A stretch of 64,000 nucleotides of DNA, taken from Bifidobacterium asteroides DSM 20089 (GTDB lineage: Bacteria > Actinomycetota > Actinomycetes > Actinomycetales > Bifidobacteriaceae). The position numbers and the translations under genes are program-made. The notes beneath the pieces are model-generated. The model saw only the letters and a list, made by a program, of their open reading frames with translations. It was not told the origin of the DNA and made no database searches. Below, piece after piece: positions 30,374 to 34,485 of this stretch. Position 1 is the first letter of the stretch; every line of letters starts with the position of its first letter. The stretch is from assembly GCF_002715865.1 (NCBI RefSeq), contig NZ_CP017696.1, forward strand, positions 1,798,001-1,862,000, given 5' to 3'.

Positions 30374-31084
30374 TCAGCGCACTCTGTTGAGTGTGTCCCG
30401 AATATGTTGAAGAGTGGGCAGATCTACATGACCCTTGGCTGTAGCTTCTTGAATTTCATTAATGGCCCGGGAATAGAAGAGGCCGGTCGCAGCATCCGGC
30501 ACCAGCGGCAGGGATTCGACCTTACGCTGGATCTGACCACTGATATCGCTCGCCTCCTTGTCATTCGGATCCAAACATGAATCGAGGAAGAGCACCTGGG
30601 ATTTCAGCTGTGCCCGATTGGCGACCTTCTCTTCTCTGACGGCCTGCTGGCGAACCGTATGCACGTTGGCTGTAATGTTGCCGACCCACAGGGAGATGAC
30701 CACTATGGTGAGCAAAACCTCGACCAGGAGGGGGATGAAAAATCCATTGGGCAATATGTGCCGTAAGGTAAGATTCCCAGACCACCAGGGGGCGTTCCAG
30801 GCTGAGAAGTAGAAAATCGCGATGATGCCTTGAATCAGATAACCGACAGCGGGAAACACCACATTCTCAGCTATCAGTCGGTAATAAAGGCTCTCGCTCC
30901 TCGTCGCAGCATCGTCATCGCTACGTGACTGAGCCACCCAGCATAGGATGGTGAACAACGCCAAGAAGAACATCACAATCCACTGAGCGGGAGGCGCGAA
31001 GCCATAGGTGCCAATTTCGGCCATGAAAGCCGCGCAACCTATGAGTGTCAGGACCGTTGCAAAAATCGAAACCAGATACTTCAT
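30374..31084 (-). CDS. Hypothetical four-helix membrane protein of the SPFH cluster
   Basis: A 236-residue protein, not recognised. Four hydrophobic segments lie in residues 4-25, 35-55, 72-95 and 108-135. A charged cytoplasmic-type tail from about 140 is rich in Gln, Lys and Glu, with a possible coiled coil (VRQQAVREEKVANRAQLKSQV). It is the last gene of a five-gene minus-strand cluster and starts nine bases after the SPFH gene stop. Context suggests a membrane partner of the SPFH scaffold. Lower GC than the chromosomal average of the window. Confidence 0.7.
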   Translation of the reverse strand: MKYLVSIFATVLTLIGCAAFMAEIGTYGFAPPAQWIVMFFLALFTILCWVAQSRSDDDAATRSESLYYRLIAENVVFPAVGYLIQGIIAIFYFSAWNAPWWSGNLTLRHILPNGFFIPLLVEVLLTIVVISLWVGNITANVHTVRQQAVREEKVANRAQLKSQVLFLDSCLDPNDKEASDISGQIQRKVESLPLVPDAATGLFYSRAINEIQEATAKGHVDLPTLQHIRDTLNRVR

Positions 31085-31093
31085 TCAAGTCAC

Positions 31094-32239
31094 CTACATT
31101 TCCTTGAGTATGTCGGCTTTTTTAGCCTCATACTCCTCTTGGGAAATAAGCTCTTTCGACAGCATTTCCTTCAGCCTGCTCAACCGCTCTACGGGGTCGG
31201 CGGCAGCCGGTTCAGGAGCTGCCTGCGCCTGTCCCATCGTCTGATTGACCATGTTGGGAATGACCTGGCCCATGCCGGCACCCATGGTCAATCCCATGCC
31301 CGCCCCTAGCAGAGCCCCACCCTCAGAGCCGGGATTGGACGCGGCACCATTCATGGCATTCAAAACTTGAGCCTGCTGATAATTGGTGCCATAAGTCTCA
31401 TAAGCAGACTGCTGGCCCTGCGCATATGCTGCTTCGCCTTGTCCCTGGGCCATACGCCCATAGAACTGCTCACGGTTCTTGGATACCAGCTCCTGGGCTT
31501 CCTGCCTGGCTTCATTGTCGACGATGTCAATTGCGGAAATGCTGAAGTTCAGCACTTTCATGCCGTATTCAGCAGCAATGGGCGCGATTTCATTCTCGAT
31601 GGTCTTGGCATAGGTTACAGCATTGGCAGGCACCGAGATAAGAGGCCCCTCCCACTTGGTCAGCTCAGTGGTCAGGATGGAAATGATATGGCCAAGGAAC
31701 TGATTGCGGAAGTAGTCGGTAATCGACTCCTGATTGGTCAGATCATAGTTATTGCCGATCAATTGAGTGAGGAAGATGCCGCAATCGTCCACTTTGATAC
31801 GATATGCGCCTCTTGCCCTCACCTCGGTTTCGACGCCGATCCCTTGGAATTGGTCAGCGAGCGCCTTGTCGTAGACCTTGATTGGCGTCTGTGTACCCCA
31901 TTTGATTTCCCTGCTGGTCGCTGTACGTACGAAATAGACCAGCGAATGGAACGAAGAGACTCCACCGGACAGGCTGTTCCGCAGGCGGGATATAAAGGGA
32001 TAATTGGCACTGGTCAGGGTATAGCTACCTGGATCGAAAATCTGCTCGATTGTACCCTGATAGACAAAGATGGCTTTTTCTCCGGGACCTACCACCAAGG
32101 TGGTTCCGTTGTTGAAGTCTTCCTCGGGGTTTTTGAATATGAGCGTGTCGTTATCTGAACGGTTCTTGATGATGTCGACAAAGTGCTTCTCACCATCTGC
32201 AAAAGCGGCTTCATTGGAGTTGTGCTTGAATACAGCCAT
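31094..32239 (-). CDS. SPFH/Band 7 domain protein with SHOCT tail (YdjI-like)
   Basis: A 381-residue protein of the SPFH-type 'virion core protein'/YdjI group. The SPFH domain covers about 45-260 (VGPGEKAIFVYQGTIEQIFDPGSYTLT to SISAIDIVDNEARQEA). A Gly/Ala/Gln-rich linker follows, then a SHOCT motif at the end (RLSRLKEMLSKELISQEEYEAKK). Such proteins form membrane-associated scaffolds; in Bacillus, YdjI works with a phage-shock-type PspA response. Neighbours are zinc-ribbon/TPR and membrane proteins. There is no N-terminal membrane segment, so it probably associates with the membrane through partners. Confidence 0.85.
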   Translation of the reverse strand: MAVFKHNSNEAAFADGEKHFVDIIKNRSDNDTLIFKNPEEDFNNGTTLVVGPGEKAIFVYQGTIEQIFDPGSYTLTSANYPFISRLRNSLSGGVSSFHSLVYFVRTATSREIKWGTQTPIKVYDKALADQFQGIGVETEVRARGAYRIKVDDCGIFLTQLIGNNYDLTNQESITDYFRNQFLGHIISILTTELTKWEGPLISVPANAVTYAKTIENEIAPIAAEYGMKVLNFSISAIDIVDNEARQEAQELVSKNREQFYGRMAQGQGEAAYAQGQQSAYETYGTNYQQAQVLNAMNGAASNPGSEGGALLGAGMGLTMGAGMGQVIPNMVNQTMGQAQAAPEPAAADPVERLSRLKEMLSKELISQEEYEAKKADILKEM

Positions 32240-32300: not shown

Positions 32301-32714
32301 TCAGTCGTCATATTCGTCCCACAGACTCACAAGCCCATGGGCGGAATTCAGGAAGGACTCTGAGCCTTCATAAGTGTTGGACTTCAGTTCCAGCTTTTTC
32401 CCTGTCCTCATGCTGATGACGCAACCAAAGTCATCCACTCGAATATCGACTATGTTCTTGAACCGATACACGTCAAAGAAGGTGCGACCTGGAGGTGTTG
32501 CGTCCCCAGCCCTGTCGGGCTGAAGTTCGAACATGGCGGAGTATATTTTTTTATTCCCGAACATCCAGATGGTGATCATCATATGACCGTTCATTTGCTG
32601 GATGTAGGAAACCGGTTCCACCCTGCCCACTTCATCCTCGTCGAAAATGCCGCAGATCTCCATAGCCGTGGCCTTACGCCTCTCTATGGCAACGCTGTAA
32701 TCTTCGAAACTCAC
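32301..32714 (-). CDS. Hypothetical protein of the SPFH cluster
   Basis: A 137-residue soluble protein, not recognised. It has alternating strands (IRVDDFGCVISMRTGKKLELKSN) ended by a helix, which could be a PH-like fold; this is a weak impression. The start is GTG at 32714 with AAAGG about 10 bases upstream. It lies between the SPFH gene and the zinc-ribbon/TPR gene on the same strand, so it is probably part of that operon. Confidence 0.65.
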   Translation of the reverse strand: MSFEDYSVAIERRKATAMEICGIFDEDEVGRVEPVSYIQQMNGHMMITIWMFGNKKIYSAMFELQPDRAGDATPPGRTFFDVYRFKNIVDIRVDDFGCVISMRTGKKLELKSNTYEGSESFLNSAHGLVSLWDEYDD

Positions 32715-32758: not shown

Positions 32759-33340
32759 TCACTTCATCAACAATTCGTTCATCTCTTGGCTGTCGGAATC
32801 GGTCAGTCCCCCTTGCTTGGCCGCTTCCATCACCTCCTTGGATGATTGCGAATACCTGATGTAGCGCTGCTCAAAAAGTCGTTTGATCAATAATGATTTC
32901 GCACACAGATACTGGGGATGTGGATTCATCTCAATCGCGGAATCCAGAGTCGCCATTATCGACTCCGCCTCTTTGAGCTTTATCTTGAACGGTTTTTGAG
33001 ACTTGAACCTGCTTAATGCGATATGGAAAAGAACGTCGGAATCGTTGGAACCATTTTCCACAGCCTTTTCCAAGTTCTCAGCGGCTTCTTGGTATTGGCC
33101 CCTGTCAAAAAGGACATACCCCAATGAAGCCAGCACTTTCGGATCATTGGGCGAATCCTTCAGCACCTCCTGGTACTTATCGAGGAATCGTGCCGAGTCC
33201 TTATAAGTGGCTCGACGAACCTGTTTAAAGTTCAACGAAGTTACAACAACAGGTCTTCCACAATAAGGACATTGCTTGCTCGAAGCCGAAAGCGGTGCCC
33301 CGCAGCCGGGGCACACGATATCCGAATCAACCGACGGCAT
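32759..33340 (-). CDS. Zinc-ribbon and TPR protein of the SPFH cluster
   Basis: A 193-residue protein. Two CxxC pairs (CPGCG and CPYCG, residues about 10-27) form a zinc ribbon, followed by TPR-like helices (DPKVLASLGYVLFDRGQYQEAAENLEKAVENG). There is no membrane segment. Its ATG comes seven bases after the stop of the preceding gene and has no good ribosome-binding site, so it relies on coupled translation. Zinc-ribbon/TPR proteins are often found with YdjI-type SPFH proteins. It may be an adaptor between membrane scaffold and clients. Confidence 0.78.
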   Translation of the reverse strand: MPSVDSDIVCPGCGAPLSASSKQCPYCGRPVVVTSLNFKQVRRATYKDSARFLDKYQEVLKDSPNDPKVLASLGYVLFDRGQYQEAAENLEKAVENGSNDSDVLFHIALSRFKSQKPFKIKLKEAESIMATLDSAIEMNPHPQYLCAKSLLIKRLFEQRYIRYSQSSKEVMEAAKQGGLTDSDSQEMNELLMK

Positions 33341-33346
33341 GATGCA

Positions 33347-34027
33347 TCAACGGCGCCGCATCGATCTGCTCATGTCGGCCATGCCCTTCTGAATAGCCTG
33401 CGTCTGCTCGGCCTGTGCGGCCAAAGCTCGGCGGGACTGTTCAGCCTGAGCCTCCATGTTCTTCTGCATCTGTCGCTGCTGCTGCTCAAAGCCACGTGCA
33501 TTGTCATCAAGGCTCTTTAGGAACAGATCATCAATCTTCTTGAAAAGACCGGTAGCAGGCGAGTGCAGTGTCTCGGCGTGTCCAATGGAGTCGACGAAGC
33601 CATCGAAGAATCCATTCCATTCATCAAGCAGATCGGCAGATTTGTTCACATCAATTTTCTTGAAAACGAAGTGGCAAATTATGCCGGCGATGACCATTAT
33701 GAATCCGAGAACACGAAGTTTCTCATTAGCAACGCACAGGAGCCCTAGTATAATCAAGGCAATTTTGACAAGCAGGAAGATAATATGTTGAGTTTTCAGT
33801 TTCTTCTCTTCTGCCTCAATTGCAGAACGCTTATCGGGAAGTTGCTGGTTGAAAGAGGTATTCAGATTAGTCAGTTGCTGCGAGAAATCATCAGGTAAAA
33901 TCCTGTCCGGCCCTTCCAAATTAGCCGTACGGATCATGCTCAACTGATTTTTGGCATTGCCATAAGCAACATTGACATCGTCGCTGTGATCAAAACCAAG
34001 TGCAGCAATATTTTCTTTGTAACCCAT
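33347..34027 (-). CDS. Membrane protein with C-terminal coiled coil, first gene of the SPFH cluster
   Basis: A 226-residue protein, not recognised. Residues 1-80 are soluble. Two adjacent hydrophobic segments lie at about 82-101 and 105-123, a hairpin, and residues 175-226 form a Gln/Met-rich coiled coil ending in SRSMRRR. AAGGAG sits eight bases before the ATG. Upstream is the small ORF that contains the 19-base G run, so its expression may vary between cells. Its coiled coil could contact the SPFH protein. Confidence 0.75.
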   Translation of the reverse strand: MGYKENIAALGFDHSDDVNVAYGNAKNQLSMIRTANLEGPDRILPDDFSQQLTNLNTSFNQQLPDKRSAIEAEEKKLKTQHIIFLLVKIALIILGLLCVANEKLRVLGFIMVIAGIICHFVFKKIDVNKSADLLDEWNGFFDGFVDSIGHAETLHSPATGLFKKIDDLFLKSLDDNARGFEQQQRQMQKNMEAQAEQSRRALAAQAEQTQAIQKGMADMSRSMRRR

Positions 34028-34088
34028 TCTTCAGTCTCCTTGATTTGGGTAAACATCAGGGAGGAGAATGCATGAATTATGGATTAGC

Positions 34089-34166
34089 TTATGGCCTACC
34101 CCCCCCCCCCCCCCCCCGGAATACGGGCAGGGCATTAAACAAACCTTTAGCGAAAGCAGACATCAT
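34089..34166 (-). CDS. Small leader ORF containing a poly-G tract
   Basis: A 25-codon frame upstream of the SPFH cluster, on its strand: ATGATG after AAAGGGG, then SAFAKGLFNALPVFR, then glycines encoded by the G run, then RP and stop. With 18 G (or any multiple of three) the frame would run past and stop at TGA, three bases before the downstream ATG and across its ribosome-binding site. With 20 G it stops directly after the run. Whether it is a translated peptide or a leader is not known, but the good ribosome-binding site makes a fortuitous frame less likely. Confidence 0.45.
   Translation of the reverse strand: MMSAFAKGLFNALPVFRGGGGGGRP
34099..34117. repeat. 19-base homopolymer (C on plus, G on minus)
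   Basis: Uninterrupted run of 19 C between 34099 and 34117, the only such tract noticed in the window. Runs of this length are unstable by slipped-strand mispairing and are the classic basis of phase variation. It lies 72-90 bases upstream of the first gene of the SPFH cluster and inside a small ORF on the same strand. Confidence 0.97.
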
Positions 34167-34485
34167 TACCCCTTTCGTTCCCCTGCGATGTTCTTAACAA
34201 GCTGAATATACCACTACCTATACGACAGCAGTCAAGAAGTCCTGAAATGCGACCTCTTAAAACAACCTATATAAACCTCTTCTTTATATCTGCCTTCCTT
34301 CAATTGATCGGCAATACAAAACCACTGGATTCAAGGGCGCAACTACATGTTTCCGCGCTGAAGAAAGCTGCGTGGTAAGCTGTGTATTTATGGCATTTTT
34401 GTGAAAACCGCTAGAGGAAGAGGCAGGCAGAGAACTCACAAAGGCGGAATAGACGAACAACGGCCTTGTGGCCGGAGAAGGAATA
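34167..34485. other. AT-rich intergenic region between the SPFH cluster and the MHS transporter
   Basis: About 320 bases. It must hold divergent promoters of the SPFH cluster and of the transporter at 34486. No gene, terminator or convincing operator was seen. Confidence 0.4.

Follow-up and report, generated by a model that had tools for sequence, protein, structure and literature searches.

A run of 19 G residues stands shortly before a five-gene SPFH cluster in Bifidobacterium asteroides DSM 20089, inside a short open reading frame (ORF) that ends before the cluster begins. Does the length of this run decide whether the cluster is translated? A sequence-only reading had raised the possibility that expression of the cluster could switch in this way between cells. 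We followed it up in the window, the whole stretch of 64,000 nucleotides of DNA that was analysed, and in the genomes of related bacteria.

The G-tract and the reading phases of the leader

The homopolymer, and around it a 25-codon leader ORF with a good ribosome-binding site, were both found again as the earlier reading had described them (Table 1). The tract counts exactly 19 G as assembled, spans 72-90 nt upstream of gene 1, whose start is at 34027, and lies about 50 nt past the start of the leader. It is the sole G/C run of at least 7 within the 64 kb window, which holds no A/T run of at least 8. With 19 G, the leader product reads MMSAFAKGLFNALPVFRGGGGGGRP, followed by the stop. The site before the leader has a strong predicted duplex energy at both start codons (first ATG, -10.8 kcal/mol; second, -12.2), next to -8.6 for gene 1, all calculated with an assumed anti-SD tail that was not taken from this genome. 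A G-tract is not rare per se in the genome that carries the window (G000; 2.19 Mb, one contig), given its 36 G-runs of at least 9.

Table 1 Features of the leader and of the SPFH operon, in window coordinates
Feature	Position	Strand	Basis or remark
G19 tract, proposed switch	34099..34117	-	19 C on the + strand, 19 G on the coding strand
Leader ORF in its present phase, 25 codons, starting ATGATG	34166-34089	-	
Ribosome-binding site of the leader ORF, AAAGGGG	34169..34175	-	Duplex energy with the anti-SD tail
Out-of-frame ATG within the leader, 18 nt ahead of the tract	34133-34135	-	Weak site, -3.8 kcal/mol
UCUCCU, 5' arm of the predicted hairpin, pairing with the gene 1 ribosome-binding site	34062..34067	-	Folding
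AAGGAG, ribosome-binding site of gene 1, predicted paired	34036..34041	-	Folding
Late TGA, the leader stop at tract lengths divisible by three	34031..34033	-	In-silico variants
Gene 1, 226 aa, long helices and hydrophobic stretches (by eye)	33347..34027	-	
Gene 2, 193 aa, zinc ribbon and TPR	32759..33340	-	Pfam families Zn_Ribbon_1 and TPR_11, both exceeding the cut-off
Gene 3, 137 aa, predicted helices around a beta sheet	32301..32714	-	Without Pfam family
Gene 4, 381 aa, SPFH (Band_7_1) with SHOCT tail	31094..32239	-	Pfam PF13421, PF09851
Gene 5, 236 aa, hydrophobic by eye	30374..31084	-	Without Pfam match; kept in the operon of six relatives

Gene order and spacing suggest that the five genes form one operon. 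Its SPFH (Band 7) domain lies in gene 4, which Pfam PF13421 matches with an E-value of 4.6e-34 and 118.3 bits (cut-off 24). Gene 1 has two weak Pfam matches, DUF4064 and DUF2207_C, both below cut-off; gene 3 gave no informative fold match, and no Pfam match to a sortase, a pilin or PspA occurs among the five proteins. That the operon serves membrane maintenance is a guess. In its make-up it resembles pspA-ydjGHI of Bacillus subtilis, an operon that also joins an SPFH protein with membrane partners and is linked there to envelope stress, as far as the excerpted text goes, which mentions no phase switch (PMC8581546); that operon has four genes and starts with pspA, whereas the present one has five and no PspA match.

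We recomputed the reading phases on in-silico variants of tract length. With 18 or 21 G the leader frame extends to 44 or 45 codons, its TGA leaving 3 nt to the ATG of gene 1, while the stop lies 61 nt before this ATG with the present 19 G and 68 nt before it with 20 G. Only tract lengths divisible by three carry leader translation across the ribosome-binding site of gene 1. The phases given in the sequence-only reading, with a multiple of three crossing the downstream site and ending three bases before the ATG, and with early stops at 19 and 20 G, are therefore correct. The late TGA in addition shares the frame of gene 1 (TGA AGA ATG), a feature that the earlier reading did not contain. As it stands in frame two codons before the ATG, no phase fuses the leader with gene 1, unlike in the known pilus tracts. 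The out-of-frame ATG inside the leader ORF reaches the coupling stop at 10 or 19 G; weak as its predicted site is, it would give some coupling at these lengths and could make a three-level switch. No out-of-frame ATG of this type is visible in the leader sequence of G002, one of the relatives described below.

The best explanation is, in our judgement, phase-variable translational coupling by the G-tract leader, and we consider it rather probable. Initiation would be efficient on the leader ORF, but a hairpin would enclose the ribosome-binding site of gene 1. Given a tract length divisible by three, a leader ribosome would traverse the hairpin and so open the gene 1 site; terminating 3 nt short of the gene 1 ATG, it could restart there (ON). 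At other lengths translation of the leader would stop no more than about 10 nt from the tract, leaving the hairpin closed and the operon poorly translated (OFF). Replication slippage in the tract would flip cells between the two states. The anatomy, the phases, the differing tract lengths and the recurring design come from sequence, the hairpin and the strengths of the sites are predicted, and expression, reinitiation and slippage within a population are what we infer.

Leaders of the operon in related genomes

In a set of relatives with one genome per species, gene 1 is present in 7 of 189 Bifidobacteriaceae genomes, the window's own counted. Wider samples contained it in 1 of 396 genomes of the order, again the window's own, and in 2 of 396 genomes of the phylum, in one of them as a 48-residue stretch. 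Among the contigs of named genomes, the match is Bifidobacterium sp. B4142, of the same genus as the window, with a gene 1 that is 97% identical; its locus is that of G025 and was counted once. All six relatives keep the five operon genes in unchanged order. With 10.7-12 kb compared, the MFS and 3-hydroxyacyl-CoA dehydrogenase genes that flank the operon had counterparts in B4142 and G010 alone.

Counting the tract in related genomes, as the earlier reading had proposed, gave lengths that differ between genomes as assembled: a G-tract occurs in five of the seven at the corresponding place of the leader, with 19 G in the window, 10 in B4142, 11 in G010, 11 in G002 and 10 in G107. Apart from the tract, which has 10 G in B4142 and 11 in G010, the surrounding 1,801 nt of these two loci show no indel and 4 substitutions. 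According to PMC9187656, annotated G-run lengths can be wrong, and assembly error in the lengths given here is possible. G121 and G133 have a leader ORF without tract. These two leader ORFs (L045 and L046) end 18 and 24 nt before gene 1, perhaps as a constitutive form of the leader.

The tract-bearing leaders fall into three types: one common to the window, B4142 and G010, one proper to G002 and one proper to G107. Judged from alignments made without the tract, the three types do not align beyond chance and have short matches only. Shuffles scored as well in 185 of 300 cases for the window and G002, in 59 of 300 for the window and G107, and in 29 of 300 for G002 and G107, the similarity of this last pair being a shared GGAAGGAGG. 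Each type has one phase that ends beside the start codon, two that stop early and a predicted hidden ribosome-binding site. In G002, 12 G would end at a TAG directly before the ATG, and the present 11 G stops early. The present 10 G of G107 is the coupling phase: the frame, which starts at a TGATG after an ORF of 8 codons, ends at a TAA 5 nt before the ATG. Altogether, one of the five sequenced tracts is in the coupling phase, and none of the three loci with a window-type leader (19, 10 and 11 G).

Of the 136 nt of leader, binding site and spacer, 4 are substituted between the window and B4142, whereas 39 of the 384 nt immediately upstream are (Fisher p = 0.006). Gene 1 differs by 35 substitutions in 681 nt (p = 0.38 against the leader region).

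Predicted folding over the ribosome-binding site of gene 1

Folding predicts that the ribosome-binding site of gene 1 is almost completely paired in the tract-bearing genomes. The probability that it is unpaired, P(unpaired), is 0.000 in the window, 0.002 in B4142, 0.002 in G010, 0.001 in G002 and 0.025 in G107. Among 40 control ORFs of the window with such sites, picked mechanically and perhaps not all genes, the median is 0.40 and the 5% quantile 0.013. When the full leader is folded, the gene 1 site is slightly less closed (0.04). In the tract-free G121 and G133 it is exposed, with P(unpaired) of 0.55 and 0.65, and the operon would be constitutive there. Hairpins that had been seen by eye in these two leaders (CTTCTT and CCTTCT against the binding site) were rejected on the same values. 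On the folding model, the contrast between tract-free and tract-bearing leaders supports a link of the tract with a hidden site, from two tract-free genomes only.

When the segment from tract to site was shuffled, the real hiding was matched in 4 of 600 shuffles for the window, 14 of 600 for G002 and 10 of 600 for G107. With the upstream side included, a P(unpaired) of at most 0.005 was reached in 19 of 400 shuffles for the window, 25 of 400 for B4142, 21 of 400 for G002 and 2 of 400 for G107, whose real value of 0.025 lies above this threshold. The z-scores of whole-segment folding are unremarkable (-1.24 to +0.11).

With a simulated ribosome placed at one or the other early stop, the site stays closed in the window and G002 (0.000-0.015) and is already half open in G107 (0.46-0.58). 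Once the 5' arm is covered by the simulated ribosome, the site is open in the window, G002 and G107 (0.34-0.82). From the side of loading, the leader site is predicted to be stronger than that of gene 1 in G002 (-12.5 versus -9.3) and, for the first leader ORF, in G107 (-15.8 versus -7.0); the tract-bearing leader frame of G107, which starts at the TGATG overlap, is itself served by next to no binding site (-1.1). Of the two leader ATGs of B4142, the second (-10.1) has a stronger site than gene 1 (-8.6) but the first (-8.1) does not. The earlier reading had held that a frame crossing the downstream site would either couple or block translation. Of these two outcomes, coupling is favored by the predicted hairpin over the ribosome-binding site, with a multiple of three as the ON state.

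The tract could also work via its length or structure, as a G-quadruplex or as the target of a C-rich small RNA on the mRNA leader, and exert graded control. If quadruplexes are allowed in the folding, the 19-G leader of the window is predicted to form one (-97.9 versus -60.0 kcal/mol) and that of G002, with 11 G, a weaker one (-64.1 versus -57.5), but there is no energy gain in B4142 or G107, both with 10 G. Such graded control by a leader G-repeat is documented for tlpB and RepG of Helicobacter pylori, where, in the excerpts of PMC8295292, a phase-variable G-repeat lies in the mRNA leader upstream of an operon, as it does here. That repeat is described as part of the 5' untranslated region, where a small RNA recognizes it, whereas the present one sits in an ORF that is predicted to be translated and whose frame changes with it. 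In the window and G002, moreover, the ORF has a strong predicted binding site, the recurring frame logic and the hairpin are not needed by a length model, and a search of Rfam gave no family in the leader. We therefore regard control through length or structure as unlikely.

Comparison with chance and with known switches

Shuffled leaders have at least one coupling phase in 0.37-0.74 of cases, which is hence common by chance. The full pattern, in which one phase couples and two stop early, arises in 0.14 of shuffles for the window, 0.15 for B4142, 0.20 for G002 and 0.06 for G107. Three leader types together make chance unlikely, though possible.

A scan for the leader-switch design passes at all five tract-bearing operon loci. 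Among other G-tracts it passes at none of 35 in G000, none of 79 in G002 and 2 of 12 in G107; the passing pair look weak, with leader starts TTG or GTG and stops at +331 and +14. The counts, which cover G000, G002 and all of G107 but a single tract on contig 20, are the same when downstream genes running off the fetched stretch are allowed; in G010 and G025 the scan covered the operon tract alone. A stricter first scan missed G002 and G107, and its criteria were then loosened (binding-site window, TGATG starts), so that the five positives are not independent of the criteria, while the negatives are. At the other tracts so scanned, no genome-wide class of leader switches was found.

The same data bear on a neutral reading, by which a genome rich in G-runs would have one in the leader by chance, its length varying without any switching. 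There are indeed 36 G-runs of at least 9 in G000 and 80 in G002, many of them at sites without obvious function. Against this stand the presence of the tract in the leader of five of the seven operon-bearing genomes and in three leader types that cannot be aligned, its occurrence in G107 with only 14 such runs in 2.8 Mb, and the better conservation of leader and spacer than of the region upstream between the window and B4142. Neutrality has, in our estimate, a low probability.

The 80 runs of G002 fall in 1.9 Mb, against 7-14 runs in three relatives of another genus, and many of them have C next. Outside the window, G000 holds eight G-tracts of 12-17 (L020, L022, L025, L028 and L029) after a signal-peptide-like hydrophobic N-terminus; they precede a repeated RQTPRVA-type (in one case RPTARVD) sequence of open frames, and three of the eight are in frame as assembled. 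The set resembles the phase-variable families of surface proteins that are known from Bifidobacterium. Also in frame as assembled are a G17 tract at G000:34200-34216 (L015, outside the window), near the N-terminus of an ORF that we take, from its sequence, to be a sugar ABC-transporter permease, and a G15 tract at G000:288094-288108 (L019), after a hydrophobic N-terminus in a long Ser/Thr/Pro-rich open frame.

Known systems are compared here as described in excerpts of the cited papers. The nearest is the pil1 leader switch of Streptococcus gallolyticus, whose principle the present leader would share but which acts on a transcription terminator: in pil1 and pil3, a GCAGA repeat in a leader ORF controls a terminator hairpin (Danne et al. 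2014, PMC3894217). In that system, too, the repeat lies within a short leader ORF having its own ribosome-binding site, and the number of its units sets the frame and with it the place of the leader stop with respect to the hairpin, the long leader being ON and the short one low. We find the repeat in a leader ORF with a ribosome-binding site in the window and in G002 (in G107 there is only the TGATG overlap start), and one phase ending in or beyond the hairpin, with the others ending before it, in the window, B4142, G002 and G107. The differences are that pil1 has a GCAGA repeat and a terminator with a T run, whereas here a G homopolymer is followed by a predicted hairpin that encloses the ribosome-binding site of gene 1, and a search of the coding strand of the window, G002 and G107 gave no intrinsic terminator there; that the ON stop lies here 0-5 nt before the start codon; and that the genes are an SPFH-type cluster instead of pili.

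Transcriptional control, in which the tract would alter promoter spacing or the leader would act via a terminator or polarity, is the least probable alternative: leader-controlled termination is the published mechanism of pil1, the closest analogue (PMC3894217), and for the pili of Bifidobacterium breve polarity after an early stop is proposed and G-tracts in promoter spacers are mentioned (PMC9187656), but the coding strand between leader and gene 1 has no intrinsic-terminator-like site in the window, G002 or G107, the tract sits well inside an ORF, and the untranslated gap of the OFF phase in the window is merely 61-68 nt. The leader regions of the window, G002 and G107 have no consensus promoter on the coding strand; a sigma-70 scan of the window leader region gave no promoter on either strand. 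A TTGACT / TATATT pair spotted by eye is spaced by 19 nt, and we do not count it as a promoter.

The sortase-pilus switch of B. breve (Penno et al. 2022, PMC9187656) is akin to the proposed coupling switch in its genus, in frame-dependent control of an operon and in length variation, with tracts of 8-13 G in its table. The pilus tracts are intragenic and join the signal peptide to the pilin, while others lie in genes or promoter spacers; leader ORFs do not feature in the excerpts (PMC9187656). There the tract is within the first structural gene, whereas here it occupies a leader ORF apart from the genes, which terminates ahead of gene 1 whatever the phase. Nor does the operon encode a sortase-dependent pilin with its sortase; its Pfam families are SPFH, SHOCT, zinc ribbon and TPR. 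Among the titles and abstract openings listed from the open-licence PMC literature, we found no report of a homopolymer that switches translational coupling via a leader ORF.

It is about an even chance that Bifidobacteriaceae evolved, or kept through complete leader turnover, a homopolymer switch that decides whether a leader ribosome gains access to the concealed start of an SPFH operon of membrane-stress-like type. According to the excerpts of PMC8295292, repeats are usually said to cause phase variation through intragenic frameshifting or changed promoter spacing. The coupling switch, if true, would be another arrangement, in which the frame of a separate leader ORF opens a hidden ribosome-binding site or leaves it closed, and genome scans confined to gene interiors would miss it. 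It would also place phase variation, in a gut commensal genus, on a membrane-maintenance-like operon rather than on a surface antigen. Cultured isolates may then have the SPFH operon off, which would matter for studies of its function.
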